From a virus, in IMG/VR virus record IMGVR_UViG_3300042691_033208, positions 1 through 38,320 of that record: 38,320 nucleotides of DNA. One strand, written 5' to 3'. Positions 3,889 to 38,320 of this stretch are shown here, in pieces. The notes below the pieces were generated by a model that ran no database searches, was not told the origin of the DNA, and was given only the letters and a program-made list of their open reading frames with translations. A program made the position numbers and the translations under genes. Position 1 is the stretch's first letter. Each line of letters begins with the position of its first letter.

Positions 3889-4128
3889 ATGAATAGTTAT
3901 CTTATCGTACCCGCACCACATTCTGAATTTTTATGGAGACAACCTTGGTTCTTTGAGTGTATCCCATATGATGATATAGATAGATGTTGTGTATACCTTG
4001 TACCCTCTAATAGAGTAGAAGAGTTATTTGGAGAGTACCATTCATTCAAAGAATATGGACAATTAGATGAAAATTATATTCATAGTCCACTTCAATACCG
4101 AATAGATTTTGATGAAGAGATTTCCTAA
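3889..4128 (+). CDS. Hypothetical protein, 79 aa
   Basis: Acidic, aromatic-rich protein (PHSEFLWRQPWFFECIPYDD near the N-terminus) without a signal peptide or membrane segment. I recognise no family. It begins 1 nt after the preceding stop and is followed by a 27-nt AT-rich gap before the methyltransferase gene. Tight packing supports it as a real gene. Confidence 0.55.
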   Translation: MNSYLIVPAPHSEFLWRQPWFFECIPYDDIDRCCVYLVPSNRVEELFGEYHSFKEYGQLDENYIHSPLQYRIDFDEEIS

Positions 4129-4155
4129 TCTCAATAAAATTAGTTATATTACAAT

Positions 4156-5718: not shown

Positions 5719-5744
5719 ACTCCCTGACTATCAATTAGTTATGT

Positions 5745-5770
5745 AACTGTTTGATTATCAAACAGTTTAA
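5745..5770 (+). terminator. Hairpin, possible intrinsic terminator after the methyltransferase
   Basis: A perfect 10-bp stem (AACTGTTTGA / TCAAACAGTT, 5745-5754 with 5758-5767) with a 3-nt loop, followed by TTAATTTC rather than a clean T-run. It sits 27 nt after the methyltransferase stop and before a promoter-like sequence at 5784, so it probably closes the upstream unit. The weak T-tract lowers certainty. Confidence 0.45.
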
Positions 5771-5783
5771 TTTCATCTGCCTA

Positions 5784-5814
5784 TTGTTTCATTGTAACAT
5801 ATTTTGTACCTTTA
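5784..5814 (+). promoter_or_regulatory. Putative Bacteroidota-type promoter (TTG-N20-TACCTTTA)
   Basis: TTG at 5784-5786, a 20-nt spacer, then TACCTTTA at 5807-5814, close to the Bacteroidota -33 TTG / -7 TAnnTTTG pattern with the last G changed to A. It lies between a hairpin and the first gene (5833) of a run of small accessory genes, as expected for a host-sigma (early or middle) promoter. Motif match only. Confidence 0.4.
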
Positions 5815-5832
5815 TAGGGTAAAAGGTTAAGT

Positions 5833-6012
5833 ATGTTCAAACTATTCATCACATTCGTTTTTAGCGGGTTATTCTACACCGCAATCCTCAAGGGTTTCAT
5901 TCCGTTCCCACCCAATGGTTCTGCTATCTTTGCAGGGGCGCTGAGTGGAGCGTTATGTTTCCTATCCCTGTTTATCATTATTGAGAAAGTAATCAGAAAA
6001 TACAATGCGTAA
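5833..6012 (+). CDS. Small two-TM membrane protein, 59 aa
   Basis: A 59-residue ORF starting MFKLFITFVFSG. It has one hydrophobic segment at about residues 3-24, a short Pro-rich turn (FPFPPNGS), a second hydrophobic segment at about 33-52 and a basic tail (KVIRKYNA). It is predicted to be a hairpin in the inner membrane; the function is unknown. It is the first gene after the promoter-like site at 5784 and overlaps the next start at 6005. The frame is open throughout and the composition is clearly that of a membrane protein. Confidence 0.6.
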   Translation: MFKLFITFVFSGLFYTAILKGFIPFPPNGSAIFAGALSGALCFLSLFIIIEKVIRKYNA

Positions 6013-6253
6013 GATTGAAATGATATCCTGTAAGAGTTGTGGTAATCAGATGCCCCTCCTACGAAAAACTCTGTATGGTTATAGTAATTGTGTTAATTGT
6101 AGTGATGTGAAACCTTATGGTTGTGCTCATGTCACCAATCACAAGACCGGTAACGAAATTCAAATACTACCCTTTGAGGTTGCTCAACGACATAATCGTA
6201 TGGCGGCTAGACAAGGTTATGGTGTTTCTAATGGTATGAAATTTAATGATTAA
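6005..6253 (+). CDS. Zinc-ribbon protein, 82 aa
   Basis: Two CxxC pairs, C9-x2-C12 and C29-x2-C32, form a Zn ribbon in the first 35 residues, followed by a C-terminal stretch HKTGNEIQIL and a basic tail. Similar small zinc-ribbon proteins are common in T4-like phages, where they are mostly uncharacterised. The ATG at 6005 overlaps the end of the preceding membrane-protein gene by 8 nt, indicating translational coupling. Zn binding is inferred from the cysteines; a nucleic-acid-binding role is possible. Confidence 0.65.
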   Translation: MRKIEMISCKSCGNQMPLLRKTLYGYSNCVNCSDVKPYGCAHVTNHKTGNEIQILPFEVAQRHNRMAARQGYGVSNGMKFND

Positions 6254-6257
6254 TAAT

Positions 6258-6374
6258 ATGAGAAAGAGAAAGTATAAGTTTGTTTTTGATTGGGAAAGAG
6301 TAGCGATTGTATTCTTTCTTTTACTTGGTAGTTTTTGTTTTTGGTATTCAATTTGGCACGCATTAGTAAAATAA
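6258..6374 (+). CDS. Single-TM miniprotein, 38 aa
   Basis: A 38-residue ORF that starts 4 nt after the previous stop and ends 5 nt before the next start. It has a basic N-terminus (MRKRKYKF) and one hydrophobic, aromatic-rich segment (VAIVFFLLLGSFCFWYSIW). It is predicted as a single-pass inner-membrane peptide with its basic N-terminus inside. The tight fit between neighbours and the positive-inside pattern support a real gene; the function is unknown. Confidence 0.5.
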   Translation: MRKRKYKFVFDWERVAIVFFLLLGSFCFWYSIWHALVK

Positions 6375-6379
6375 ATAAT

Positions 6380-6718
6380 ATGAAAATAGCTCAAGAGTAT
6401 TTAGATGGTAATCCGATTGTTAAGAAATTCATTGATGAGGTTAATGAGACAATTCGGAAATATTACGAAACCAATTTGTCTAACCTCACCTTTCAACCTG
6501 TAGTTGTGAGTATCGGTACGAAGTTTATCGGTATCACTCACAATGGTAGTCGGTGGGGATTCATTTCCCGTTTTGATGGAACTTTCAAAGGTAGGCCGAT
6601 TCGGAAAGGTGACCTGATGAAATCCGCATCATGGAGTTCACCTGCAGCAATATCCCGTGGTAACATTGGTGATGGAACTGCTCGTTATGGAGTTTACGGA
6701 CCAGATTATATTAAGTAA
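6380..6718 (+). CDS. Conserved-type phage hypothetical protein, 112 aa
   Basis: The start was placed at the ATG at 6380 (MKIAQEYL), since a longer in-frame version would overlap the whole end of the upstream miniprotein gene. The protein has a helical N-terminus and a beta-rich, glycine-containing middle (SRWGFISRFDGTFKG). No catalytic motif or membrane segment is visible. It belongs to the run of small accessory genes 5833-7942 that are tightly packed and probably co-transcribed. Confidence 0.6.
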   Translation: MKIAQEYLDGNPIVKKFIDEVNETIRKYYETNLSNLTFQPVVVSIGTKFIGITHNGSRWGFISRFDGTFKGRPIRKGDLMKSASWSSPAAISRGNIGDGTARYGVYGPDYIK

Positions 6719-6723
6719 GTCAT

Positions 6724-7017
6724 ATGAGAAAATTAACATCAAAAGCAGTTAGTAAATTTTTGAGTAACACTCCATTCCGGCAAGGTAACACCGAGGTTAC
6801 AATAGATGATGGAATTACTTATTTGAAACTACATGGCAATAAAATTGCTGCCCTCTTCAATGATGGATTATGGATTAGTAACGCAGGGTGGTTTAGTAAC
6901 ACTACAAAGGAAAGGTTGAACGCACTACCTAATGTGAAAATCCATCAGGTAAATTGGAATTGGTTTTTGAACGGAAGCAAATGGGATGGTAAGCCCATTT
7001 ATATTGGTAAAATTTAA
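6724..7017 (+). CDS. Conserved-type phage hypothetical protein, 97 aa
   Basis: A basic N-terminus (MRKLTSKAVSKFL) is followed by a beta-rich domain with repeated Trp and Gly residues, including GLWISNAGWFSNTTKERLN at about 57-75. That pattern resembles small conserved proteins I associate with large phages; no function is known to me. It begins 5 nt after the preceding stop. Nothing odd is visible in the frame or codon use. Confidence 0.65.
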   Translation: MRKLTSKAVSKFLSNTPFRQGNTEVTIDDGITYLKLHGNKIAALFNDGLWISNAGWFSNTTKERLNALPNVKIHQVNWNWFLNGSKWDGKPIYIGKI

Positions 7018-7029
7018 AACAAATAGATT

Positions 7030-7173
7030 ATGGAAACCGAACAGATTGTAACATTGAAAGACCTCATGGAGTATGATGGTCTTTATTTTATTGGAAACAT
7101 TATTGATGCCGATGGAGAAGATTGGGTAAGAGAATCAGAAGCGTTGGAAGTACTTAAAATTGTAAACGGATGA
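7030..7173 (+). CDS. Acidic miniprotein, 47 aa
   Basis: A 47-residue acidic ORF starting METEQIVTLKDL, with no membrane segment. It starts 12 nt after the preceding stop, and its stop overlaps the ATG of the nucleotidase gene (ATGA at 7170-7173), so translation of the two is likely coupled. The family is not recognised. The overlap and the clean frame support it. Confidence 0.5.
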   Translation: METEQIVTLKDLMEYDGLYFIGNIIDADGEDWVRESEALEVLKIVNG

Positions 7174-7628
7174 ACAAGAAGATATTATATTTAGATATGG
7201 ATGGGGTTATCGTAGATTTCCTCAAAGCGGTTGATATATGGAAAAAGGCGTATCCCGAATTAGCTGGTGTGTATAAGGATAATGAAGATATGATACATGG
7301 AATCTTTCGTGATTCACCACCTATTACAAATGCAATAACATCGGTATTCCGACTCCACAATAGTGGTAAGTATGATATCTTTATCGCAACAGCCGCTCCA
7401 TGGAACAATCCTGAATCACTTACTGATAAAAGATATTGGATAGAAAAATGGTTTGGTGATATTTTTAATAGGAGGATTATTACAACTCACAGAAAAGATT
7501 TGCTGATTGGAGATTACTTAGTTGATGATAGAAAAAAGAATGGAGCAGGTGATTTCAAGGGTGAACTTATTTTGTTTGGTAGTGATGAATACCCCGATTG
7601 GAATAGTGTATTAAATAAACTACTATGA
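7170..7628 (+). CDS. 5'(3')-deoxyribonucleotidase-like HAD phosphatase
   Basis: A 152-residue HAD-fold protein. Motif I is LDMDGVIVDF, with D9 the nucleophile and D11 the acid/base. Motif II is T74 in IATAAPW. Motif III Lys is near K109 (HRKDLLIGD), and motif IV is DD at 119-120. The DMDGV box and the small size fit the NT5C/5' nucleotidase C family, which removes phosphate from deoxyribonucleoside monophosphates. In phages this can adjust nucleotide pools or salvage host DNA. Start and stop overlap both neighbours by ATGA, so it sits in a translationally coupled set. The exact substrate is inferred. Confidence 0.8.
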   Translation: MNKKILYLDMDGVIVDFLKAVDIWKKAYPELAGVYKDNEDMIHGIFRDSPPITNAITSVFRLHNSGKYDIFIATAAPWNNPESLTDKRYWIEKWFGDIFNRRIITTHRKDLLIGDYLVDDRKKNGAGDFKGELILFGSDEYPDWNSVLNKLL

Positions 7629-10058: not shown

Positions 10059-10625
10059 ATGAAAGCAAACTCACTTAAACCGATTCTCTCTACACCGTTT
10101 ACACAAGAAGTAGAAGTATCATTAAAAGAAAAATTATCTCGTTATTGTGAAAAGAGAAGATTGTTTTGTGTATCAACACGAACATTACTTTCAAACTATA
10201 GAGCAATTTACATCAATGGGCCAGAAACAAAATTGTTACTTGTTAATCCTGTGATTACAAAATATGGAGATGCAAAATTTAATTCACAAGAAGTATCTGA
10301 GTTTGTAAAGGAGGGTAAGAAGGCAAAGACAGTTGTTAGAGCTATGGAAATAGAAGTGCAATGTGATAACTTAGGAACAGTTGTTTTCTCTGGCAATATG
10401 GAAGATAAACAAGCTGATTTAAATGAGTGTATCATGGTTCAACAAATGATTGATTTGCTAGATGGGTTTACAATTGCAGATAGAAATATAAACAAACCTT
10501 TACCAAGTGAGAATAAGTACAATCGTAATCAGTTGGTCTTAGCAAAAAATTCAGAAGGTGTTATTGAACAAATAAAGTTTAAGAACATAGAAAGATACAT
10601 AGAAAAAGGATATACCATACTATGA
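10059..10625 (+). CDS. Peptide deformylase-like protein lacking catalytic residues
   Basis: 188 residues that follow the peptide deformylase scaffold: LLLVNPVITKYG (59-70) matches the LINPEI strand, KTVVRAMEIEV (90-100) matches the VTVRALD strand, and VQQMIDLLDGFTIADR (127-142) matches the motif-3 helix normally reading QHEIDHLDGxxFxDR. The metal ligands and catalytic Glu are replaced: His to Q129, Glu to M130, His to L133. The EGCLS motif Cys is also absent. Active deformylase removes the N-formyl group from nascent proteins and is common in T4-like cyanophages; this copy should be inactive and may have a binding role. It overlaps the following gene by ATGA. The fold call is from my own alignment of motifs. 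Confidence 0.6.
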   Translation: MKANSLKPILSTPFTQEVEVSLKEKLSRYCEKRRLFCVSTRTLLSNYRAIYINGPETKLLLVNPVITKYGDAKFNSQEVSEFVKEGKKAKTVVRAMEIEVQCDNLGTVVFSGNMEDKQADLNECIMVQQMIDLLDGFTIADRNINKPLPSENKYNRNQLVLAKNSEGVIEQIKFKNIERYIEKGYTIL

Positions 10626-20464: not shown

Positions 20465-23400
20465 ATGCCAGTCAGTTTAACATATTCGCAACGAACAACC
20501 TACATTGGTGATACTGCCATTTTTAATGGTGCAACTTTTATATGGAATGGTACTGAATACATTGAAACAGGATTAATACAAATAGATAATCCACTGCTTA
20601 ACAATAGAAAGGTAGTAATACAATTTAATGCAAAACTTATACAAACATCTCGTTCATCTACAACCACTTTAAGTGCTGGATTTTTAGATGTATATGTAGA
20701 TAATGTACAATGGGATGAAGAACAAATTTATAGAACAGATGCGTATTTAGAAGTAACATTTGATGAAAGTTTTCTAAGAACACAAAAAATTGTTACTTTC
20801 CAATCTAAACAAGGAGAATCTCGCACACGCTTTGCAGTACGATCAAATGTATATACTGATTCAGATGTAGTTGTAGTAAAATATGATGTTATTGATCCAG
20901 AACCAAAAATTGGAGATTCAACTGATATTGCTAGACCAACACGAAATGTTAGAAGATTTACTACAAGACAAGATTACAAACAAACATTTGCAAATGGATT
21001 AGCTAGATTTAATAATCTTGAAGTAACTCTTGTTTCACCTTTTATTGGATTTCCTATAGATGTATCTGTTACTGAAATTACAGGAACGGAGGCAACTATA
21101 ACTTGGAATACCACATCCGAAACATCATATACTATAAAATTTGTAGAACCAAACTGCCCACCAGATGGATGTGTACTTAAATCTGAAATACTTACAAGTA
21201 ATCATGTAGTTAAATTACAAAATCTAAAAGTAGGTACAGACTACAAATTTAGTATAGAATCTGTATCTGTGGATAATGAAAAATATACATCTAATGAAGT
21301 TTCATTTTCTACAATAGGTTCTTTTCAACAACCACCTACAACACAAAAATTACCTACCATATTATCTCAGATTGAATCACGATATGATTGGGATGTAAGA
21401 AATGATTTTTCAAACTATAATTTTGCTCTTGCTGTAAGTGCCGATACTGAATTTGTAAAAGGGTATTTACCATCAAGAGCGGATGTAAATCACATTGGGT
21501 ATTTTATTTTCCCAGCTGATACGGTTCCTATTACAGACCAATATCCTGAAGGGAAGAGAGTTTTAATATCATTTGATTGGCCAGGAGGATTAGGAACTTA
21601 TGAATCTGCTTTTGTTCCATCAAATAATGTTGTAGGTGATGGAATCCCTACCAACTTTTTATTCTATATAAAACGCGTACTTGATTTTCCTCAACCTGAT
21701 ATAACAGGATTGGAATTCTCTCGTTTCATAACCGAAAGTGATTTCAAAGACCCATTCCAATACTCCTTTCAATTTAAGGGTACATCTGTTAATTCTCAAT
21801 TCATAGAAGTATTTGTTGGGCAAGTAACAGATGCTAGTTTACCGATTACAAAAGTACCGGTTGATGAAGTTGGTAACTTTGATATTACCATACCCGCTCA
21901 AGAAATTTATAACATTAATCCTAATGCATTTACAGAAGGAAAGGATTTGTTTGAAAATGATACATTATGGTGGGTAGTTAGTTTTTCAATAAGACCATCT
22001 CGTGGTGGAGTGAATACCATGCTGTATGGTAACACAGAAATTTTCACTTCTTATGTAAAACGAAGTCAGTTAACTTTATCTGATAGTGAAGTAATAGAAT
22101 TCATTGCTACTGAATTAGAAAAAAGATTAAGAAGTGAATATTCTAATCTTTTACTATTTGATAACGATAAACATTTAAAATATCAACTAAAACAAATAGA
22201 TCCTACTGCGGATTCTTTTGTAGTAAGTAATATAGCAAAAGATGATGTAACATTTTCAGTAGGCCCATCTAATGGATGGTCAGGTGGTGTACCTCCTCGT
22301 TTGAATAATTCTATACCTTTGAATTGGTATAAAAATTCAATTGTAGAAACTACATTTGATATTGACCCCTTAACAGGAGATACAATACGAGTTCAATCTA
22401 CTCCATATCCTACCTTAGTTGTTAAATTATTAGACCCACTTCCAGCTGAGATAGGAGTAAACACTCAATTTTGGGTATCAAAACAATTAATACCTACAAT
22501 AGTAGAAGATATAGTTTTATCGTTTGAAGATGATGAAGCGTGTATTGTATTACAACCAAATTTTGGTATAGATGTATTAGATGAAACAGGGTATCAGTAT
22601 TACAATGAAATTATTGCTAGTGGCAGTTTAACATCTACCGATATTGTAAATAAGTACTTATCACAAAGTGCATTAAATTTATCTGATTTATCAATCGCGT
22701 ATACAAGTGGTAGTGTTGTAACTTCATCTACATTTTTGTTGTTTGATAACTTTGTAAATTTCTCAAGTGCAGAAACAAGGGTAGATAACTTTCAATACAA
22801 ATTATCAGCAATAGAATTCTGGCGTAATAAAATATCCTCATCATTATATGTGGGTAATTCACTTGCAGATGGTGTATACACAAAAGCAACAAGTCAATCT
22901 TATATAGATTCAATTAATCAAATCGTAAATGGATTTGATGGTTTTGAAAAAGAAATGTATAGTACATATTACATTACATCATCTAATGCAGAATTCTTCT
23001 CATACCAAATACCCGTAGCGCAAGAATACGATAAGCAGAACAAAAATTATCTTGTAAGACATTTACCATATTATTTACATGATGGTGCAAATAGTGGTGA
23101 AAACGAAGAATTTGTTTTGTTTGTTGAAATGGTTGGACAGCACTTTGATGTGTTGTGGTCATACATAAGAGGATTACATAATAAAAATGTTATACGAAAT
23201 GTAGCAAGTGATAGTATACCTGATAAGTTAGTTCAGGCAATGTTAGAAAACTTAGGATGGGATTCTGCATATCCATTCTCCGGTTATGAGTTATGGAGAG
23301 AAGCTTTTGGATTAAATGCGGATGGTACATCCGTAACTAATACAAATTTATTGGGTAATAGTATAACACCTGCGTATACACCTGAATCCGGTAGAAAGCA

Positions 23401-25780
23401 AATATGGAGAAGACTTCTTAATAACCTACCTTACTTATTAAAACATAAAGGTACTAAGCGTTCTGTAAAAGCAATCATGTCTTGTTATGGGATACCTGAA
23501 TCCTTACTTAGTGTAGTTGAATTTGCCGCACCATCTAAACAAACTGCAAGTGCAAGTGTTGAGCTAGAAAACTACACATATACAACTACTACATCAAGAT
23601 TGAATGTAGTAACATCATCAAATGTATCAGTACCATACTACAATCTTAATACTGAATCTAATGCAGTACAATTAAGATTTGCAACATCATATCAGGTATC
23701 TACTGCTACTTCTACTACAGGTTCACAATTAATAAGAATGGTGCCAGATGGGGGTGGTGGATATTGGCAGGTAAATATTAAACCTACACAAACAGGTAGT
23801 TTTGCAGATGTAGTGTTCACATTAGCATCTGGTTCAAGTACATTAGTAAGTAGAAGCCTATCTATTACATCAAGTGTTATTTACGATGATTATTGGAAAA
23901 ATCTAACCATTCAAAAAGAGAGATTTGTAAGTGCATCTGTAACATACGATAAATTTACAATGTATGTGGTTGAGGCGTTGGATGATAGAATAATAATGAA
24001 CCAATCCAATTCATTCATAACGGCATCATCGGGGTTTACAAATACATTTACAAAAACAGGTAGTTTGTATTTTAATGGATACTTAACTACACCTGGTATA
24101 AGTGGAGGATTAGATGAAATACGAGTGTGGAATACCGCAATAAGTGAATCTGTTATCTACTCTCATGCATTAAACCCTGATACCATTTATGGGAATGGTG
24201 TATATGATACCACGGATAATTTATTGGTAAGACTTGATTTTGAGTATCCAAAGAATAGAGTATCTGACCCGTATGTAAAAAATGTATCCCCTAAGGTAAC
24301 ATTTTCAGCATCTGTTGCAATTGGTGGTTATGCAGGGTATGCAACTGCAAGTATGGGATATACTGCCACTTCATATCCATATCACTATTCAGTATATGAA
24401 AGAACTGCTACATCTCAATTACCTAAAATGGGATTAGTAGCAGGTGATAAGGTAAGATTCATAAATCAAAGTTTAGTAAGTGACTTATCTCCTATTTCTC
24501 GTGCAACTCAACCCATAACAGAACTTGCACCTATAGATGTAAACAAGTTAGGATTATTCTTCTCACCTGTTAAAGAAATAAACTTAGATATACTAAATAG
24601 TTTAGGGAAGATTAACATTGGTGATTACATAGGAAGTTGGGAAGATGAATATGGAGTTGATAGATATAGAGATTTAGATTCTCTTAGACAGTATTACTTT
24701 AAGAGAACTAATTTTAATTTCTATGAATACATAAAGTTGGTTAAATCAATTGATAAATCATTTTATGATATGATAAAACAACTTATACCTTCACGGGTAA
24801 ATGTTGTAACCGGTATATTAATTGAACCATCAATTTTGGAAAGAAGTAAAATAAAAATTACGAAACCAAAAGGTGAAAAAATATTACACACTGCTTCTAT
24901 TAATTACATTGAACATTTGGTACTTGATGGTGAAAATCAGGTGTATGATGCAATATTTGATGATTTACAATTAGATAAAACATTTGATGTAGAAGTAAGT
25001 TCCTTAACATCAATTATACCAACCGCAACTATGCTAACTACTAGTGCGGAATATCTATCGTATACTTCTAGCTATGATGTATACTCTAACCTAAACATAG
25101 AAACCTCAATTATTTACAGCTCTGGTTCAAATGGTGGTTCTATAGAGGGTAACATAAATGCTAAATACATAGATTCTACTGTATTAGGTGAATATGATTT
25201 GGAAGATTCATATCAAAATGTAGGAACTGATGTAGATTCACCTTATCTAAAAGGGTTTGGTGTATATGGGGAAAACGGAGCAGTGGATAGAACATACAGA
25301 AGAGCCGATGGAACTCTTGTATTAACAGAAAGAAGTAACGCATATATACTTACAATTAGAAGAGATAGAGAAGTTCCTAATACGGATTATGATGGAATCA
25401 CAACATATCCAACCGCATCTAAGTTTGAAAAGAAACTTGTATTTGTTTCTCAAAGTGATGCTAATGCAGGTGGAGCATTCAGAAGCCCATCCGCCCACTC
25501 TTTCTATACCACAATAAATGCTGCTTTAGGAACATATCCATATGATAAAGGTGTGGTTACTTTAATAGAGTTATTTAATGGGTATACCACAGGACACTAT
25601 AGATTTACAAAAGATACTACTCGTGGATTAGAAAATAGCTATTTCAATGGTTCTAAACAAACCTCTTTAACTACTTTGGATGGAACTCCCGCAGTTGAAG
25701 TGTTTGCTACTAACCCGAACACATTGAAGGTAACAAATAGCGGTCGTGGTAGTGGAGAACCAATATTAGAGGTAACATAA
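20465..25780 (+). CDS. 7: Giant gp7-like baseplate wedge protein with FN3 and LamG-like inserts
   Basis: 1771 residues, against 1032 in T4 gp7. An N-terminal beta domain precedes an FN3-like domain at about 201-285 with the NCPPDGCV loop. Residues of about 850-1020 hold a Tail_P2_I/gp7-type core: YLVRHLPYYLHDG, the acidic helix region with GQHFDVLWSYIRGLHN, then NNLPYLLKHKGTKRSVKAI and CYGIP. A LamG-like jelly roll spans about 1062-1242 with the closing GGLDEIRVWNTAIS. After it come the helical stretch LRQYYFKRTNFNFYEYIKL and MIKQLIPSRVNVVTGILIEP (about 1410-1460), typical of large phage wedge proteins. gp7 links the inner ring to the periphery. The extra domains suggest added host-contact functions. 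Confidence 0.75.
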   Translation: MPVSLTYSQRTTYIGDTAIFNGATFIWNGTEYIETGLIQIDNPLLNNRKVVIQFNAKLIQTSRSSTTTLSAGFLDVYVDNVQWDEEQIYRTDAYLEVTFDESFLRTQKIVTFQSKQGESRTRFAVRSNVYTDSDVVVVKYDVIDPEPKIGDSTDIARPTRNVRRFTTRQDYKQTFANGLARFNNLEVTLVSPFIGFPIDVSVTEITGTEATITWNTTSETSYTIKFVEPNCPPDGCVLKSEILTSNHVVKLQNLKVGTDYKFSIESVSVDNEKYTSNEVSFSTIGSFQQPPTTQKLPTILSQIESRYDWDVRNDFSNYNFALAVSADTEFVKGYLPSRADVNHIGYFIFPADTVPITDQYPEGKRVLISFDWPGGLGTYESAFVPSNNVVGDGIPTNFLFYIKRVLDFPQPDITGLEFSRFITESDFKDPFQYSFQFKGTSVNSQFIEVFVGQVTDASLPITKVPVDEVGNFDITIPAQEIYNINPNAFTEGKDLFENDTLWWVVSFSIRPSRGGVNTMLYGNTEIFTSYVKRSQLTLSDSEVIEFIATELEKRLRSEYSNLLLFDNDKHLKYQLKQIDPTADSFVVSNIAKDDVTFSVGPSNGWSGGVPPRLNNSIPLNWYKNSIVETTFDIDPLTGDTIRVQSTPYPTLVVKLLDPLPAEIGVNTQFWVSKQLIPTIVEDIVLSFEDDEACIVLQPNFGIDVLDETGYQYYNEIIASGSLTSTDIVNKYLSQSALNLSDLSIAYTSGSVVTSSTFLLFDNFVNFSSAETRVDNFQYKLSAIEFWRNKISSSLYVGNSLADGVYTKATSQSYIDSINQIVNGFDGFEKEMYSTYYITSSNAEFFSYQIPVAQEYDKQNKNYLVRHLPYYLHDGANSGENEEFVLFVEMVGQHFDVLWSYIRGLHNKNVIRNVASDSIPDKLVQAMLENLGWDSAYPFSGYELWREAFGLNADGTSVTNTNLLGNSITPAYTPESGRKQIWRRLLNNLPYLLKHKGTKRSVKAIMSCYGIPESLLSVVEFAAPSKQTASASVELENYTYTTTTSRLNVVTSSNVSVPYYNLNTESNAVQLRFATSYQVSTATSTTGSQLIRMVPDGGGGYWQVNIKPTQTGSFADVVFTLASGSSTLVSRSLSITSSVIYDDYWKNLTIQKERFVSASVTYDKFTMYVVEALDDRIIMNQSNSFITASSGFTNTFTKTGSLYFNGYLTTPGISGGLDEIRVWNTAISESVIYSHALNPDTIYGNGVYDTTDNLLVRLDFEYPKNRVSDPYVKNVSPKVTFSASVAIGGYAGYATASMGYTATSYPYHYSVYERTATSQLPKMGLVAGDKVRFINQSLVSDLSPISRATQPITELAPIDVNKLGLFFSPVKEINLDILNSLGKINIGDYIGSWEDEYGVDRYRDLDSLRQYYFKRTNFNFYEYIKLVKSIDKSFYDMIKQLIPSRVNVVTGILIEPSILERSKIKITKPKGEKILHTASINYIEHLVLDGENQVYDAIFDDLQLDKTFDVEVSSLTSIIPTATMLTTSAEYLSYTSSYDVYSNLNIETSIIYSSGSNGGSIEGNINAKYIDSTVLGEYDLEDSYQNVGTDVDSPYLKGFGVYGENGAVDRTYRRADGTLVLTERSNAYILTIRRDREVPNTDYDGITTYPTASKFEKKLVFVSQSDANAGGAFRSPSAHSFYTTINAALGTYPYDKGVVTLIELFNGYTTGHYRFTKDTTRGLENSYFNGSKQTSLTTLDGTPAVEVFATNPNTLKVTNSGRGSGEPILEVT

Positions 25781-29339: not shown

Positions 29340-29777
29340 ATGTGGTTTTATGAAGGTAAAGAGGTATCCGAATTATCGGATTTCCCAACAGATACATTTG
29401 GATTCGTTTATAGAATAATACATACTCCTACACAAAAGGAGTATATAGGTAAAAAGCAACTCATATCAAATCGTACTTTACCTCCCCTAAAGGGAAGTAA
29501 ACGCAAACGAAAAATACAAAAAGAAAGTGATTGGAAATCGTATTATGGTTCACATACCATGATAAAACAGATGATTAAAGAGGGCAAGATTAACGAGTTT
29601 AGAAGGGAAATAATTCAATTTGCAACCTCAAAGAAACATCTAACATACTTAGAAACAAGGTACTTGTTCTACTATAGGGTCTTAGAGTTCCCTGACCTTT
29701 TTTATAACGATAACATCCTCAACCGATTTTTTCGTACTGATTTCTTCAAATCTAAGAAAGGAATAATTGAAAATTAG
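29340..29777 (+). CDS. GIY-YIG-type putative nuclease
   Basis: 145 residues. GFVYRI at 21-26 and EYIGKKQ at 34-40 match the two strands of the GIY-YIG nuclease core, with a Lys/Arg-rich loop following and a possible catalytic Glu in LTYLETRYLF (about 100-110). Phages carry similar stand-alone proteins with uncertain roles, including homing endonucleases and DNA-processing enzymes. There is no sign of an intron next to it. The basic loop would suit DNA binding. It starts 15 nt after the preceding stop and 32 nt before the primase, so it may belong with DNA metabolism. Confidence 0.6.
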   Translation: MWFYEGKEVSELSDFPTDTFGFVYRIIHTPTQKEYIGKKQLISNRTLPPLKGSKRKRKIQKESDWKSYYGSHTMIKQMIKEGKINEFRREIIQFATSKKHLTYLETRYLFYYRVLEFPDLFYNDNILNRFFRTDFFKSKKGIIEN

Positions 29778-29809: not shown

Positions 29810-30733
29810 ATGGGAATATCACAAATAGATAAGGATTTCGTCAAGACTAAAATTGATGATATACTTGGTTATGGTAGAAACCTTGGTAAGGGAGAAATTC
29901 AATATCACTGTCCTTTTTGTTCTCATCATAAACCAAAGTTACAAATAAATCTTGATACTCAAAAGTGGAGGTGTTGGGTATGCAATTCCAAAGGAGCAAA
30001 GATGTATACTTTACTCCGAAAACTTAATATTGATTATGGTGTACTTGCTACCATAAAGAAGATATATGGTGAAGTTGTTTACTCCTCACATAAGGAAGAT
30101 GATGTACAATTAACTTTACCAACTGAGTACAAACCCATATTAGATAACCTACATATAATAGAGTTTAAGGTATCTTACAATTATCTGAGGAAGCGGGGTA
30201 TATCAGATGGAGATATACAAAAACATAGAATAGGATTCTGTGAGACAGGATTATATCGTGGTAGAATAATCGTTCCATCTTATGATGTAGAGGGTAGGCT
30301 TAATTATTTCATTGCTAGAACAATCTATGATAATGAATCATACAAGTACAAGAACCCACCTGTTAGTAAAAATGTAGTAATGTTTGAATCAACTATAAAT
30401 TGGAATATGCCGGTTACTTTATGTGAAGGTGTATTTGATGCTATATCAATACGAAGAAACGCAATTCCAATATTAGGTAAAATACCATCTCAAACTTTAT
30501 TGAGTAAGATATTACTCAACCGCCCAAAAGTAAACATAGTGTTGGATAACGATGCACTCTCCGATGCAATAAAGCAGTTTACATACTTGACTAATAATGA
30601 TATTGAATGTAACCTCATAACATTAGATGGGAAAGACCCATCTGATATGGGATTTATTGAAGTAACCAAACAAATACAAACTAATACGACATCTTCTTTT
30701 GAAGACCTAATTAAATTGAAACTGACACTATGA
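29810..30733 (+). CDS. 61: DnaG/gp61-type DNA primase
   Basis: 307 residues. A zinc-binding domain at the N-terminus has C34-x2-C37 and C55-x2-C58 (CPFC ... CWVC), as in CHC2-type primases, and reads template sites. A TOPRIM catalytic domain follows: CEGVFDA at 205-211 with E206, LDNDAL at 245-250 supplying D246 and D248, and DPSD at 276-279. It makes RNA primers for lagging-strand synthesis, with the phage helicase. It is shorter than most DnaG (about 600 aa), like T4 gp61 (342 aa). The stop overlaps the start of the Mre11-Rad50 fusion by 4 nt, so they are co-expressed. Confidence 0.85.
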   Translation: MGISQIDKDFVKTKIDDILGYGRNLGKGEIQYHCPFCSHHKPKLQINLDTQKWRCWVCNSKGAKMYTLLRKLNIDYGVLATIKKIYGEVVYSSHKEDDVQLTLPTEYKPILDNLHIIEFKVSYNYLRKRGISDGDIQKHRIGFCETGLYRGRIIVPSYDVEGRLNYFIARTIYDNESYKYKNPPVSKNVVMFESTINWNMPVTLCEGVFDAISIRRNAIPILGKIPSQTLLSKILLNRPKVNIVLDNDALSDAIKQFTYLTNNDIECNLITLDGKDPSDMGFIEVTKQIQTNTTSSFEDLIKLKLTL

Positions 30734-33700
30734 TTAACAAAGTAGAAAAGTTAAAACGGATAAAATACATTTACCACCTTGCAGATTTACACATCCGCAA
30801 TCTAAACCGCCATAAAGAGTATCGCCAAATACTAAATAAGTTCTTAGATGATGTAGATAATCAAAAACTTGAAGATGCGGTTATATTCTTAGGTGGGGAT
30901 ATTGCTCACGCTAAAACTGATATGAGTCCTGAGTTGGTGCGAGAAATAACTTGGTTCTTTACTGAATGTGCAAAACGATTACCTACCTATGTGATAACAG
31001 GTAACCATGATTGTAACTTAAACAACAAAAGTAGATTGGATGTACTTACTCCTATATGTGAGAATCTTAATACACCAAATCTTTTTTACTTACGGGATAC
31101 TGATACATACGAAGTATCTGATGATGTTACTTTCACTGTCTATTCTATACTAGACCACAAGGAGAATTGGCCTAAAGGAACTGATGTTAACGGAAAGAAA
31201 AAGATTTGTTTATTTCACGGCCCAGTTAACGCCGCAAAAACTGATATTGGATACACGGTACAATCAGAAAGTTTCACTACAGAAATCTTTGATGGATTTG
31301 ATATTGTACTCATGGGTGATATTCATAAGAGGCAGATTGTTCAACAAAGAGATAAGAAGAATGGTAAACCAATTGTAGTTTATTGTGGTTCAACCGTTCA
31401 GCAAAATCATGGTGAATACTTGGAGAACCATGGATATCTACTTTGGGATATTGAAAAAGAAACATTCACCGAACATAATGCACATAATGATTATGGATAC
31501 TTAACAATTGATATCATTGATGGTAAAATACCTCAATGGGTATATGATGAGATTGATGATAAGTTACCAAAGTATCCTCGTCTTCGTGTTAGGTTTACTG
31601 AAACCGATAACGCTAGGATTAAATTAGTATCTGCTCAACTACAAAAGATGTTTAAGGTTAGTGAGATAACCGTAAGTAGACAAGATACTCTTGCATCTTT
31701 AAAGACAAAGAATCGTAATGTAAAACATTTGGCAGGTAATGTTAAAGATGTTGATGTACAAAACCAATTAATACGAGATTATCTTGAAAGGCAATTTATT
31801 TTGGATGATAAAACACTTGAGAAAGTTATTGAGATAAACAAACAAACCAATCTGAAGATTACACAAGATGAGGTAGATAACATTCTTTGGATACCAAAAT
31901 CGTTTACTTTTTCTAATATGTTTTCATATGGAGAGAACAACGAGGTAGATTTTTCAAAAGCAACTGGTATCATAGGATTATTTGCACCTAACACATCGGG
32001 TAAATCCTCACTATGGGATGCCTTATCATTTTGTATCTTTGATAAGTGTAGTAGAGCATTTAAGGCTACACATATAATGAACAATCAAAAGAAAACATTT
32101 GATTGTAAGTTCAACTTTGTTATAGATGGAGTGGATTATTTCATACAACGGAAGGCGTATATCAGTAGAACAGGAAAGGTAAAAGTGGATGTGGAATTTT
32201 GGAGAGAGGTAGATGGAGTAGTTGAAACATTGAATGGAGATGAAAGAAAAGATACCAATAGTGTAATACGAAAGTATTTGGGTAGTTACGAAGATTTTGT
32301 TATGACATCATTATCGTTGCAGGGTAACAATTCTTTGTTTATTGATAAATCACAAACAGAACGAAAAGATGTACTTGCCCAATATATGGGTGTAAACATT
32401 TTTGATAAGTTGTATGATGTGGTGAGTGAAGAAAACAGAGAGAACGCTGCTCTATTAAAATCTTTTAAGAAAGAAGATTATGGGTTGAAGATTGCAGAAC
32501 TATCCCAGCAGATGAAAGATGAGATGGGTACATTTGAATACCTGAAACAGGAGAAAGAAACACTTGAGAATGATAAATCTGTAATACAGAAAAAGTTGAT
32601 GACATTAGAGTCACAGATAAAGAAAACGGTTGAGATTATTGATTTGAAAGATGTAGAAGAACTTCTTTCCTCTAAGAAAAATGATGTTGTTGAGTTAACA
32701 CAAAAGATGGATAAAATGGTAACTCAATTTACGCGTGTTGATTCAATTGTAACCGATGTAAGGAAGAAGTTAGATACTCCATCTCCATATTCAAAACCGA
32801 TTGAAGAGGCGTATTCCGATTATAAGAATCTATTGACACAACATGATTCTGCACAAAAGGAAATATCAATTTATAAGAATAAGTTGGAAGTACAAAGAGA
32901 AAAACTTGTACATCTTTCTAAACATGAGTATGACCCTAATTGTAAATTTTGTGTAAACAATGTATTCGTACAGGATGCAATTTCTACTAAGCAGATTGTA
33001 GAGGATATGGAAAAGACCTTAAACAAAATGCAAGAAGATGCCTACACGATACTTGACCAAACATATAAGTATCCCGATATAGAAGAGGAATATCAATTGC
33101 ACAAAGATAATGAAAAGGAACTTAACTCTGCAATAACACTTCAAAGTAGAATAAAGGCAGAGATGGCAAGTACTGAATTGAATCTGAAAAAAACCGAAGA
33201 CATCATAAGGAATTGTGAAACAAAGATTCAAGAGTATCATAGGAACAAGGAGCAGATTGAAATCAATATCAAGACACAAAGTGAAATTGATTCTGTTACT
33301 AAGATATTCAAAGCTGTTCAGAAACAATTAAAAGGAATAGATGAGAAAGTACTCCGTTCAAATGGTAAACTATCCGAATTCAAAACAGAAAAAAACAACA
33401 TAGAAGAAACAATACGAAAGGTAAAAGATTTGGAGGAGCAAAATAAACTTTATGATTACTATTTGGATGCTGTTAAGAGAGATGGGGTATCGTATGAATT
33501 AATAAGTAAAACACTCCCAGCTATTGAAGGGGAGATAAATAATATCTTAGGTCAGATAGTAGAGTTTCAAATTAACCTACAGATGGATGGTAAGAATGTA
33601 AACGCCTACATGGTATATGGTGATGATAGAAAGTGGCCGTTGGAGTTATGTAGTGGCATGGAGAGATTTATTAGTGGTTTGGCAATTCGTATAGCACTTA

Positions 33701-33921
33701 TAAACATTTGTAATCTCCCAAGACCAAACTTCCTTGTGATTGATGAAGGGTTTGGCACATTAGATGCAGAAAATCTACAATCACTATTTATGGCATTCAC
33801 CTACCTGAAAACTCAATTTGATTTTGTTGTCATCATATCTCATATTGATTCTATGAGGGATGTTGTGGACAGTCTAATAGAGATTAAAAAAGATAGTGGG
33901 TTTAGTTCTGTTCGGTTTTAG
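30730..33921 (+). CDS. Mre11-Rad50 (gp47-gp46, SbcD-SbcC) single-chain fusion
   Basis: 1063 residues in one open frame. The N-terminal ~340 residues are an Mre11/SbcD nuclease: D19-x-H21, GGD with D57, GNHD at 91-94, H163 and GDIH with D197 and H199, all expected Mn ligands. The rest is Rad50/SbcC-like: a Walker A region at 419-426 (APNTSGKS, with Ala in place of the first Gly), coiled coils, a zinc-hook CKFC at 738-741, an ABC signature CSGMER at 974-979 and Walker B FLVIDE at 1001-1006 with D-loop GTLD. T4 has separate gp47 and gp46. The complex resects DNA ends for recombination-dependent replication and host DNA breakdown. The 3' end overlaps a minus-strand gene by 20 nt. Confidence 0.9.
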   Translation: MINKVEKLKRIKYIYHLADLHIRNLNRHKEYRQILNKFLDDVDNQKLEDAVIFLGGDIAHAKTDMSPELVREITWFFTECAKRLPTYVITGNHDCNLNNKSRLDVLTPICENLNTPNLFYLRDTDTYEVSDDVTFTVYSILDHKENWPKGTDVNGKKKICLFHGPVNAAKTDIGYTVQSESFTTEIFDGFDIVLMGDIHKRQIVQQRDKKNGKPIVVYCGSTVQQNHGEYLENHGYLLWDIEKETFTEHNAHNDYGYLTIDIIDGKIPQWVYDEIDDKLPKYPRLRVRFTETDNARIKLVSAQLQKMFKVSEITVSRQDTLASLKTKNRNVKHLAGNVKDVDVQNQLIRDYLERQFILDDKTLEKVIEINKQTNLKITQDEVDNILWIPKSFTFSNMFSYGENNEVDFSKATGIIGLFAPNTSGKSSLWDALSFCIFDKCSRAFKATHIMNNQKKTFDCKFNFVIDGVDYFIQRKAYISRTGKVKVDVEFWREVDGVVETLNGDERKDTNSVIRKYLGSYEDFVMTSLSLQGNNSLFIDKSQTERKDVLAQYMGVNIFDKLYDVVSEENRENAALLKSFKKEDYGLKIAELSQQMKDEMGTFEYLKQEKETLENDKSVIQKKLMTLESQIKKTVEIIDLKDVEELLSSKKNDVVELTQKMDKMVTQFTRVDSIVTDVRKKLDTPSPYSKPIEEAYSDYKNLLTQHDSAQKEISIYKNKLEVQREKLVHLSKHEYDPNCKFCVNNVFVQDAISTKQIVEDMEKTLNKMQEDAYTILDQTYKYPDIEEEYQLHKDNEKELNSAITLQSRIKAEMASTELNLKKTEDIIRNCETKIQEYHRNKEQIEINIKTQSEIDSVTKIFKAVQKQLKGIDEKVLRSNGKLSEFKTEKNNIEETIRKVKDLEEQNKLYDYYLDAVKRDGVSYELISKTLPAIEGEINNILGQIVEFQINLQMDGKNVNAYMVYGDDRKWPLELCSGMERFISGLAIRIALINICNLPRPNFLVIDEGFGTLDAENLQSLFMAFTYLKTQFDFVVIISHIDSMRDVVDSLIEIKKDSGFSSVRF

Positions 33922-34093
33922 CCACAGGTAGAATATTTTTAGGATAGTTGGTTCGTATTCTTTCTTTTATTAAATTGGATACGAACCTACTCATTTTATA
34001 ACCCCTTTCATCACAAAATTCTTTTAGTTGAGAATGTACCTCCTTGGGTAATTGTAACATAGCATAACTCTCAGATTTACTCTTCTTTATCAT
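33902..34093 (-). CDS. Ribbon-helix-helix-type regulator, 63 aa
   Basis: The only convincing minus-strand gene. Residues 10-45 follow the RHH (Arc/CopG-like) pattern: a strand YAMLQLP, helix KEVHSQLKEFCDERG and second helix KMSRFVSNLIKERI. Such dimers bind inverted repeats through the strand. Its start is 27 nt from a minus-oriented TATTTATA element (34128-34121), half of a 28-nt palindrome that it could bind for autoregulation. Its end overlaps the convergent end of the Mre11-Rad50 gene by 20 nt. Fold from pattern; target inferred. Confidence 0.65.
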   Translation of the reverse strand: MIKKSKSESYAMLQLPKEVHSQLKEFCDERGYKMSRFVSNLIKERIRTNYPKNILPVAKTEQN

Positions 34094-34163: not shown

Positions 34164-37100
34164 ATGCCAAGAATACAAAAGAAATCACCACTTCAGAGGT
34201 TAAGTACATTTCAGACGTTGGTAGTTGATACTAATCCGAATTCAACATACTTCAAAATATCTGAAATACCTGACCAATTAACTGCGGGAAAGAACGCATT
34301 CCTTATAGAAGGAACTCCCTATCTTAGAAAATCAACCGATATTAAAATAGAGGTATTAGATGTTGATGGTAATCCTTTATTTGTAGAACCAGGTGAGGGT
34401 ATACCAGAATATTATGAAGGATTATCTAAATTGATATCTGTTCATGTTTACGCAAGTACCCCAATAGGTGTTGGAAAAATAACTATATTAGGTGAATTAG
34501 AAACTTACATAGATGATGCCGGATTGGAAAAAGAAGTACCGGATGTATGGGAAGATGTATATAATGTAAAGTGGGAGAAAGATATCAAGATAAATAAAAA
34601 TGTACCTAATGAAACAAGAGTAAGATTTGTACAAAGACCATCTGTTATCATAGAAGAAACAGGTGAAAGTTTTTATTCACGAAATGTAACATCTTCTATA
34701 CAAACAAATGGAACAGTAAGAGGATTAGCCATAACACCAATTGAAGGAACTGATTTATCTACATGGGGAGGTGGTATACAATATCTAATTCAAAATGAAT
34801 CTAATGATTTTGTAGATAATGGTAAGCGTATATCAATATCAAACACATCTATTGAAAATGCAGATATTCTTGAGTATGTGACACAAAGAAGTGTTATTGT
34901 TCAAGTACCAAATACTTCTAGCCAAAATATAATAACTAATTTCACAAATAACAATTATGAATTAGTATATGAATATGCATCATCTATTGCAGAATCAGAT
35001 TTGTTTGGTTCTTTTGCTAGATTTGAAGTAAACAGCTTAAAAACATTTGTAGGTGATGTTGAAAGATTAAAAGTTTATGCTAGAAGTAGAGCAACCTCTG
35101 CTGATTATTATTTACTACATGATACAAAGATTGATTCATCAAACCTACTGACAGTTGTAGTATCAGGTTCAAGTGAAAATATTGGATACTTTACTTCTTC
35201 ATATAGTAACAACAAATCGTACACACATTATTGGACAACGCAGAGTTCAGCAAATGTTAGTTTAGATACTCAAGCATTATACAAATCAGTTAAGTTTCAA
35301 AACAACAAAATAACAACAAATTTAGGAACTGCAATAAGATTAGAAAGAGGTAGTGAATATACATTAGAATTTTACACTTATTATTCTGGCTCTACAATAA
35401 ATGATACGGATGCGTTAAAAATATTTTTGACATCTACCTTACGAAGTGGTGTAGGAATTCCTAATTACATAATAACAAGTAGTGTTGCTACTATATACGG
35501 AAATAAACTTTATAAAACACCAACAAAGTTATCCTACAACTTTATTCCCGATTCAACAGATTACTGGTCAATAAATTTTGAAGCAGTTAATCCAAATTCA
35601 GATACATTTTGGCAGGTTGGAAGTGTCTTATTAGAAGGTAGCAATGAGTTAGGGTATTCACCTGATGAATACACATTTACCGTTCCCATTATTAGACAGA
35701 TAGAACAAGAAACTTACGATTTTAGATTTGAGTGGTTCGACATAAACAATAACTTTGTTCCAATAACAAATACAGGTACTCAAACATTTGTAAGTGGTAA
35801 CTTAACATTATTGGGTAAAAACTTATCAGTAGATGCAGATAAACTATTTTTTACTTTCAATGCTAGTTCACAAGCAGATCCTGATAATCAAATCATATCA
35901 TTAGTTGCAAATAAAGCTAAGTTAGCCGGTAACCTATTAATAACTTCACAGGCATTTGATACAGGAGGTATATACATCTCACCTGCTTCATTTTTAGGAA
36001 ACCCATATCCGGGTACATTAACATCTACATATGAAGATGCAATTATTTTTTCAGGTTCTTTAATCATAGCTAATTTTACAGGTTCTTTACATGGTGCACC
36101 ACCCAGTCCTGGTGATGTAATTGTAGATAGAATTCTGTACACATTTACGGAAGCAAATTCAACTCAACCACAAACAAGAAGATTATCCGTTAGTAGAGTA
36201 CTTACTGGAACAGGTTCAGCTGGTGCAGCAGGGGCGGATGCCAAATCAGTAAGTTTAGTATCAAACATATATGCTATTGCATATGATTCAAATAATAATG
36301 AGATTGGTACAAACAATGTATGGTTAACTGCATCTCAACAAAACCATAATGGGGTTGTATATTATGAATTTTTAAAGAACGATGTATCTAAACAAAACAC
36401 TACATCTCAATATTACAATGTCTTAACTGCCGATAAACCGGCAAGTGCATCACGAGATTCTTGGAAAGTAAACACACGAGAAGGTTCAAGTGGTGGAAGT
36501 ATAGTAGCGTTTGATACTCTTGATTTATTCGGATTGAAATCAGGAGATAATGGATATACCGTATTTCTAACTAATGCGGCTACTACATTTCCCGCATCCG
36601 ATACAGGAATAGTTTCATCAGATGTGTTATCAACAGGAACTACCGATGTAGTGTTTTATAAAGGAACTCAAGCATTCACATACGACCAAACTTCACCTTA
36701 CGATACAAATAGTTATAGAACAGGTTCAATTATATCATCATCTGGTATTACCTATACAACAAGTGTAGTAGGAAGTAATCTAAGAATTACACCAACTGCT
36801 ATTAATACTAATTTAGGTACACTATTATCAGGTAGTTTAACAATTCCGATTGTAGATAATGATAATACACTTAATTTTATTCTTACATATAACTATTCTG
36901 TTGCGAAAGCAGGCAATAGTGGGTCTAACGCATTATCTATAGTTGTAAATCCATCAACTCAGATTGTATCCAAGAGTGTAGCGGGTACATATAAATCACC
37001 CGTAACTTTTAGTATACAAGTATTTGAAACGGGTTCACCTTTATTGTATACTGGCTCAGATAATACATTACAGAATGGTTACTTTACAATTTTTGCAGGT

Positions 37101-38320
37101 ACACCCACATCTATGGGAACACTTGTTCCTGCAACAGGTTCACTAAGTGCATCAATAATACCTCCGAATGTAACAACTGATTCGGGAACAACATCATCTT
37201 TTGCAGTTCGTTACCGAGATTCAAAAGGTAATCTTTCTTCATTTATTTCTCAATCACATTTTGTAGGAGTGGTATTTGATGGAAGAGATGGAGCATCGGG
37301 TTCAAACGCAGTTAGTATAGAATTGATTCCTACTACACAAACCGTAACCGCAAGTTTGGCACTAGGAACATATTCTACTGCATCTCAATTTAATGTTCGC
37401 GTTTATGAGACTGGTTCATTAATGCGATATACCACCACTCAACCTCCAACTACAAGAGGAACTTGGACAATTTACATGAGTGGGATTGGTAGTAACGGAA
37501 CAAACAATTCATTAAATAATGAAACGAGTGGAACTATTACACCACCATTAGTAACTGCTATACGACCACACACATCATCATTTGCAGTACAATACCTTGA
37601 TTCAAAAGGAAATTTATCTGCGTTTGTATCTCAATCTCATGTAGTAAATGTAGTATCCGTTGGTCAAACAGGGCCTGGTATCGTATTTACCGGCCCATGG
37701 TCATCAAGTAGAACATATCAGTATAGTGAAGGTTCAGCAAACGGAAGAAGAGATGCTGTGATATCCGGCTCTTCAAATCGTTATTATGCTACTAAACAAC
37801 AACACATTGCCGATTCAACTAATTATCCAGGATTTGGAGTTGGAGAAACTAATAGTAATGCATTTTGGGAATATCTTGGAACTGAAGATGCCTTTGTTGC
37901 AGCTAAGATTGCGATATTCAAAGAATCTTATGTTCAAAATACACTTAATGTAGGAACAACAAATTATGAACAAGGATTTAGTAAAGCAAATATAACTATA
38001 GCAGGTGGTACAGAATACCCTTACATATCAATTGGTCAAACTCCATCTACAGGGTACAACAATAATGGAATATGGTTAGGAAATGATTCGGGAATTTTTA
38101 GAATGTCACTAACCTCAGGTTCAACTAATTTCCTAAGATGGACAGGTACTACATTAGAAATAGCAGGTTCTATAAATGTAACAGGTGGCGATGCGGCAAC
38201 TCAAACATTTTCACAAACTGCTGCTAATAATGTTAACACATCAGCATCTGCATACTCTAATAATGTAAATAGTTCAGCATCTTTATATTCATCAAATGTA
38301 AATAGTTCAGCATCTTTATA
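34164..38320 (+). CDS. Very large tail fibre-type protein, 3' end outside window
   Basis: An open frame of at least 1385 codons that runs off the window. The N-terminus (about 1-150) resembles phage tail attachment domains: KISEIPDQLTAGKNAFLIEG, then IKIEVLDVDGNPLF and VYNVKWEKDI. The middle is Ser/Thr/Asn-rich beta structure. Residues 920-1171 hold two tandem 126-residue repeats joined by short collagen-like Gly links (DGRDG, GQTGPG). Near 1300-1345 is GIWLGNDSGIFRMSL with FLRWTGTTLEIAG, common in host-specificity fibre proteins. It then enters an 11-residue repeat. It is likely a host-binding fibre whose receptor tip lies beyond the window. Confidence 0.75.
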   Translation, partial: MPRIQKKSPLQRLSTFQTLVVDTNPNSTYFKISEIPDQLTAGKNAFLIEGTPYLRKSTDIKIEVLDVDGNPLFVEPGEGIPEYYEGLSKLISVHVYASTPIGVGKITILGELETYIDDAGLEKEVPDVWEDVYNVKWEKDIKINKNVPNETRVRFVQRPSVIIEETGESFYSRNVTSSIQTNGTVRGLAITPIEGTDLSTWGGGIQYLIQNESNDFVDNGKRISISNTSIENADILEYVTQRSVIVQVPNTSSQNIITNFTNNNYELVYEYASSIAESDLFGSFARFEVNSLKTFVGDVERLKVYARSRATSADYYLLHDTKIDSSNLLTVVVSGSSENIGYFTSSYSNNKSYTHYWTTQSSANVSLDTQALYKSVKFQNNKITTNLGTAIRLERGSEYTLEFYTYYSGSTINDTDALKIFLTSTLRSGVGIPNYIITSSVATIYGNKLYKTPTKLSYNFIPDSTDYWSINFEAVNPNSDTFWQVGSVLLEGSNELGYSPDEYTFTVPIIRQIEQETYDFRFEWFDINNNFVPITNTGTQTFVSGNLTLLGKNLSVDADKLFFTFNASSQADPDNQIISLVANKAKLAGNLLITSQAFDTGGIYISPASFLGNPYPGTLTSTYEDAIIFSGSLIIANFTGSLHGAPPSPGDVIVDRILYTFTEANSTQPQTRRLSVSRVLTGTGSAGAAGADAKSVSLVSNIYAIAYDSNNNEIGTNNVWLTASQQNHNGVVYYEFLKNDVSKQNTTSQYYNVLTADKPASASRDSWKVNTREGSSGGSIVAFDTLDLFGLKSGDNGYTVFLTNAATTFPASDTGIVSSDVLSTGTTDVVFYKGTQAFTYDQTSPYDTNSYRTGSIISSSGITYTTSVVGSNLRITPTAINTNLGTLLSGSLTIPIVDNDNTLNFILTYNYSVAKAGNSGSNALSIVVNPSTQIVSKSVAGTYKSPVTFSIQVFETGSPLLYTGSDNTLQNGYFTIFAGTPTSMGTLVPATGSLSASIIPPNVTTDSGTTSSFAVRYRDSKGNLSSFISQSHFVGVVFDGRDGASGSNAVSIELIPTTQTVTASLALGTYSTASQFNVRVYETGSLMRYTTTQPPTTRGTWTIYMSGIGSNGTNNSLNNETSGTITPPLVTAIRPHTSSFAVQYLDSKGNLSAFVSQSHVVNVVSVGQTGPGIVFTGPWSSSRTYQYSEGSANGRRDAVISGSSNRYYATKQQHIADSTNYPGFGVGETNSNAFWEYLGTEDAFVAAKIAIFKESYVQNTLNVGTTNYEQGFSKANITIAGGTEYPYISIGQTPSTGYNNNGIWLGNDSGIFRMSLTSGSTNFLRWTGTTLEIAGSINVTGGDAATQTFSQTAANNVNTSASAYSNNVNSSASLYSSNVNSSASL
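36921..37677 (+). repeat. Two tandem 378-nt (126-aa) protein repeats in the fibre gene
   Basis: Copy 1 (36921-37298) begins GSNALSIVVNPSTQ and copy 2 (37299-about 37677) GSNAVSIELIPTTQ. Both contain F/Y-ETGS near the middle, SSFAVxYxDSKGNLSxFxSQ near the end. The unit looks like an Ig-like beta domain. A more diverged copy may start near 36235 (GADAKSVSLVSN). Confidence 0.7.
38226..38320 (+). repeat. 33-nt tandem repeat, 11-residue units, continuing past the window
   Basis: Units begin at 38226, 38259 and 38292 and encode NNVNTSASAYS, NNVNSSASLYS and SNVNSSASLY. The last two are near-identical at DNA level. An 11-residue period suggests a hendecad coiled coil or a beta-solenoid shaft. The array is cut by the window end. 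Confidence 0.85.

Follow-up and report, generated by a model that had tools for sequence, protein, structure and literature searches.

A further fusion of SbcD-like nuclease and SbcC-like ATPase, of the Mimivirus R555 type, in an environmental tailed phage

Are the Mre11-type nuclease and the Rad50-type ATPase that a preliminary description of the viral record IMGVR_UViG_3300042691_033208 placed in one polypeptide truly joined, and, if so, is such a joined enzyme unusual, what might it do and how might it have arisen? The record (38,320 bases, referred to in its full length as the window) is probably a fragment of a larger genome. The frame in question begins with an ATG, contains no internal stop and matches both families in a single chain. 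In Pfam searches the protein matched Metallophos over residues 14-200 and AAA_23 over residues 394-632, and in PHROGs it matched SbcD-like proteins over residues 3-367 and SbcC-like proteins over residues 154-1061, while NCBIfam and PDB sequence searches agreed with these assignments. Together with the fused relatives described below, these results confirm the uninterrupted frame of 1063 codons, and the family and fold matches of both halves show that its domains were rightly identified as Mre11 followed by Rad50. The gene, its parts and the gene before it are as follows.

29810-30733, plus strand: DnaG-like primase gene (phrog_47, E 4e-42; TIGR01391)
30730-33921, plus strand: Mre11/SbcD-Rad50/SbcC fusion gene, 1063 amino acids (open reading frame; both families in one chain; fused in relatives)
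30763-31479, plus strand: Mre11-type phosphoesterase core, residues 12-250 (Pfam Metallophos 14-200; VIA-align Z 22-23)
31315-31326, plus strand: GDIH motif, residues 196-199 (38 of 38 fused relatives; hhalign)
31480-31689, plus strand: Mre11 capping-domain region, residues 251-320 (fold match to 7dog)
31750-31851, plus strand: predicted two-helix (HLH) Rad50-binding region, residues 341-374 (AlphaFold2; position as in Yoshida 2011, PMC3175470)
31852-31887, plus strand: join or linker, residues ~375-386 (12 residues; without secondary structure in the model)
31888-32394, plus strand: Rad50 N-lobe and Q-loop, residues 387-555 (AAA_23; VIA-align Z 25-26)
31984-32007, plus strand: Walker A, within the Rad50 N-lobe
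32395-32916, plus strand: ascending coiled coil, residues 556-729 (helical in the model; low sequence conservation)
32941-32952, plus strand: zinc hook C738-x-x-C741 (CxxC in 38 of 38 relatives)
32962-33444, plus strand: descending coiled coil, residues 745-905 (helical in the model)
33445-33918, plus strand: Rad50 C-lobe with signature, Walker B, D-loop and His switch (most conserved part; SbcC family matches)
33652-33663, plus strand: signature SGME, within the Rad50 C-lobe

A single frame could result from an assembly or sequencing artefact, in which two adjacent genes are run together by the loss of a stop or by a frameshift, and there is a real precedent for this. The Listeria phage LMTA-57 (KJ591605.1) has an annotated SbcD-SbcC fusion of 1009 amino acids at 3995-7024 that differs from the split genes of phage P100 by two single-base deletions in A-runs. 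Either an error in sequencing or a fusion of very recent date is the probable cause of this difference, so apparent fusions elsewhere can be of either kind. To set against this precedent there are the relatives of the window protein, which are encoded in at least 581 stretches in an IMG/VR alignment search. Among the best 80 of these, which were kept, almost all of the complete genes are single frames of 1040-1069 amino acids with 39-65% identity, and the remaining relatives are cut by contig ends. Ten loci match the fusion over its full length at 65% identity, and in two others (L036 and L039) the match contains a stop very close to its beginning, so that our script did not settle the frame. 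In every complete relative examined, from 66% down to 39% identity, the frame passes through the join. Relative to a protein of 66% identity, dN/dS is ~0.10 for the gene as a whole and ~0.15 for the HLH and linker, values to be read with synonymous sites near saturation. Dozens of independent contigs, and complete phage genomes as well, have the same join and length at identities of 38-66%; this conservation across independent assemblies rules out a frameshift at the join and excludes chance or assembly error as the source of the fusion, leaving next to no probability for an artefact.

The active-site motifs could be read directly in both halves. Those of the nuclease are D19-L-H21, G56-D57 with H60, G91-N-H-D94, H163-G and G196-D-I-H199, and those of the ATPase are the Walker A A419-PNTSGKS426, the hook C738-KF-C741, the signature S975-GME978, the Walker B and D-loop (1001-FLVIDEGFGTLD-1012) and the switch histidine H1038. 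The GD, H60, GNHD, HG, CxxC, SG-x-E, DE and switch His are invariant in 38 fused relatives. The expectation that all Mre11 metal motifs are present needs qualifying: of the five phosphoesterase motifs (DxH, GD, GNHD, H, GHxH) the first four are canonical, but the last is GDIH. At this position E. coli SbcD has GHIH (aligned with hhalign) and T4 gp47 has GHFH, so one metal-ligand histidine is replaced by aspartate, a change conserved throughout the fused relatives. Similarly, Walker A, CxxC, signature, Walker B and D-loop were all found as described for Rad50, with the departures that the first glycine of Walker A is alanine and that the signature is SGME, not SGGE (SGME in 37 of 38 fused relatives). 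With these three substitutions (Asp in GDIH, Ala in Walker A, SGME as the signature) the protein differs from characterised enzymes, which counts against the explanation that we favour below.

These departures bear on whether the nuclease half might be inactive, or altered in specificity by GDIH in place of GHxH, with the protein serving mainly as a DNA tether. The His-to-Asp change in all 38 relatives would fit a tether, as would the six of 38 that have DxQ instead of DxH. However, the other metal ligands are invariant, and the nuclease half and the ATPase N-lobe are under equally strong purifying selection. Aspartate can, moreover, bind Mn2+. The same Asp also occurs in two-gene T5-like proteins, which have GDLH, and in Mimivirus R555, at the position of His206 of P. 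furiosus Mre11 (PMC3175470). We therefore give the tether very little probability.

The anatomy of the join was examined in an AlphaFold2 single-chain model (38 sequences, mean pLDDT 79). In the model the phosphoesterase core is followed by the capping region, a helix pair (341-355 and 360-374, pLDDT mostly 79-90), an unstructured stretch (375-386) and the Rad50 head, whose beta-1 strand starts at residue 387; the placement of the domains relative to one another is uncertain (pTM 0.46). Fold comparison with VIA-align matched residues ~10-320 to Mre11/SbcD chains (Z 22-23), the nuclease and capping structure of S. aureus SbcD (7dog) aligning with residues 12-317 at Z 23.2. Residues 387-1063 matched E. 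coli SbcC and Rad50 heads (Z 25-26), with the Rad50 structures aligning from 387. The predicted helix pair at 341-374 lies outside the well-covered PDB matches, as the VIA-align rows barely reach residues 316-385, a gap in coverage that does not in itself speak against these helices. The HLH and linker thus fall at 31750-31887, within the 31750-31950 where the join had been placed previously. In the T. maritima complex about 28 Å separates the Mre11 C-terminus from the Rad50 N-terminus, and a linker of 9-12 residues has been predicted for the fusion (PMC3175470). The linker here, of ~12 residues, is within this range, and both the capping region and the predicted helix pair are kept. A join that places the nuclease beside the ATPase head would fit this modelled anatomy. 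The 1:1 stoichiometry that the fusion was said to fix, by comparison, changes little, because the ordinary Mre11-Rad50 complex is already 2:2.

A separate consideration is whether the fused gene gives rise to two working chains, either by internal initiation near codon 397 or by proteolysis of the linker. M397 is invariant and conservation is comparatively low in the linker, which would suit such an arrangement. However, no Shine-Dalgarno-like sequence was seen by eye just before codon 397, and M397 is inside the conserved Rad50 motif FSNMFSYGE, so that initiation at this codon would truncate the fold. In addition, phages with two genes obtain separate chains without fusing them. Based on these points we consider two working chains very improbable.

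In our assessment it is very probable that the gene encodes a fused SbcD-SbcC of the R555 type, which forms an M2R2 head and processes DNA ends for recombination-dependent replication. The fusion, the fold of each half, the conserved active sites, the gene neighbourhood and the wide distribution among phages are observations, from which we infer the dimer architecture, the nuclease activity and the role in end resection. The simplest reading is that two fused chains would pair through their ATPase heads, in an ATP-dependent manner, and through their nuclease domains, forming an M2R2 head like that of the two-gene enzyme, in which the short linker would connect the nuclease's Rad50-binding helices directly to the Rad50 head. 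Such a protein would most likely process DNA ends, hairpins or protein-blocked ends to 3' single strands, which would feed a phage RecA-type recombinase in recombination-dependent replication and repair. By analogy with T4 gp46/47, which have a role in resection (PMC3016280), end resection for recombination-dependent replication is the likely function.

The neighbouring genes are consistent with this expectation. The primase gene ends within the start of the fusion gene, the two sharing 4 nt (ATGA), and they probably form an operon; a tblastn match to the primase was found in 101 of the 113 loci that carry the fusion or SbcCD matches. Of 14 records that carry the fusion, 8 also contain a RecA-family gene; counting against the proposed role, PF00154 detected no RecA in the four fusion-bearing Bacteroidota/Sphingomonas jumbo phages or in two IMG/VR records. 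Most of these records have no strong SbcC/SbcD match other than the fusion, the exception being a 735-kb phage. Upstream of the primase (29340-29777, plus strand) is a SegE-type GIY-YIG endonuclease gene (PF19835, E 1.5e-31) that is kept in 35 loci, including that of Microcystis phage Mel-JY01 at 29% identity. It may therefore be a stable resident and not a homing endonuclease passing through. On the opposite strand, at 33902-34093 (minus), a 63-aa ORF overlaps the 3' end of the fusion gene and is conserved beside the fusion in ~50 loci. It resembles a ribbon-helix-helix protein (RHH_5, below the cut-off) and is a possible regulator.

The same domain join was found in Mel-JY01, LR756501, pT24, PTm1, MA9V-1 and PAU in addition to the IMG/VR relatives. 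The Mel-JY01 protein (WWT39521.1, PP395634; 1066 aa), annotated only as 'AAA domain containing protein', is fused over its whole length with 38.5% identity and is likewise preceded by a GIY-YIG protein and a primase in the same order, although a small extra ORF lies between primase and fusion. Fusions in one frame and in the same order are also encoded by the uncultured 735-kb phage LR756501 (1202 aa), by Tenacibaculum phages pT24 and PTm1 (1310 and 1318 aa), by Sphingomonas PAU (1301 aa) and by Chryseobacterium MA9V-1 (1326 aa). Besides its fusion, LR756501.1 has a separate SbcC-like stretch at 670999-672753, with four in-frame stops that were read through, and, at 451881-452144, a short SbcD-like match. 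In the 484-kb phage LR756508 the fusion gene is present, but with its nuclease part interrupted by a 305-aa ORF (6674-7591 of LR756508.1). This interruption, just after GDIHKRQ, carries zinc-finger-like repeats rich in Cys as well as a TnsA-like endonuclease domain (PF08722, E 5.8e-6); a search of the interrupted gene for a group I intron gave no Rfam match.

Outside the phages, the best fold matches of the fusion protein in BFVD are giant-virus proteins of R555 size, which rank ahead of other phage fusions; identities for the giant-virus matches are 17-25% (Tupanvirus: E 8.7e-70, 25% over 1332 columns). Relatives are also encoded at eight loci in assemblies of bacterial or archaeal genomes, and several of these loci, on short contigs, are probably binned phage DNA. 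No full-length fused match was found in the plasmids searched. The possibility that the fusion is confined to its source lineage is rejected by Mel-JY01, the IMG/VR relatives, the jumbo phages and the giant-virus fold matches; the fusion is common in environmental phages, large phages and giant viruses.

The preliminary description had treated the fusion as unusual unless it should prove common and already described in related phages, and it is both. Yoshida, Claverie and Ogata reported in 2011 an N-Mre11/Rad50-C fusion in Mimivirus R555, a Bacillus phage (0305phi8-36), plasmids and eukaryotes, tied it to aquatic phages and aquatic abundance, and noted primases on metagenome scaffolds with R555 homologs (PMC3175470). 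The window protein is therefore a further case, and a good example, of the known R555 type and not a discovery. It shares with R555 the nuclease-then-ATPase order, the capping and helix-pair region, the short linker and the Asp at the His206 position, as well as an aquatic phage-like setting with primases nearby; it differs in its length (1063 aa, against 1351 aa for R555) and in belonging to a tailed phage, this comparison being based on the published description and on giant-virus relatives in BFVD. The abundance of full-length genes in environmental phages confirms what was deduced in 2011 from short metagenome reads only. Natural fusions of ~1050 residues with short coils could, in addition, be convenient single-chain models for structural or single-molecule work on DNA-end processing.

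Two-gene versions of SbcD/SbcC occur in T4, T5-like, SPO1-like and cyanophage genomes. These pairs have the same two activities and the CxxC hook and are encoded by neighbouring genes, but they are separate genes, and neither the tree of the nuclease half nor that of the ATPase half places them in the fused group. E. coli SbcCD has the same folds, and its sbcD and sbcC genes are adjacent, but it differs in having two chains, much longer coiled coils and the canonical GHIH and SGGE. In the tree of the nuclease half, a branch with support of 98/99 separates 17 fused rows from 10 two-gene rows, and in that of the ATPase half the same numbers of rows are separated with support of 100/99. This topology would fit one fusion event among the sampled phages. 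However, the fused rows had been collected through their similarity to the window protein or to one another, long branches were flagged, and the trees were built without giant-virus and plasmid fusions, and so the repeated fusion proposed in 2011 (PMC3175470) may still hold overall. We suggest, tentatively and as the less probable course of events, that the fusion had a single origin in large aquatic phages and that the Mimivirus-like giant-virus copy was taken from that phage family. In favour of this are the single group that phage fusions form in both halves and the giant-virus identity of the best BFVD matches. If true, R555 would represent a phage-to-giant-virus transfer and the proposal of repeated fusion would be revised.

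Several other features of the window were recorded. No RNA families were found in it. Two very large ORFs, one of 1771 aa (20465-25780, plus strand) without a PHROG match and one of >1385 aa that runs off the window end (34164-38320, plus strand), with no match in PHROG, Pfam or NCBIfam, nevertheless each have relatives next to the fusion in other phages. At 10059-10625 (plus strand) a 188-aa ORF matches polypeptide deformylase (PF01327, E 2.7e-6), which marine phages are known to encode.
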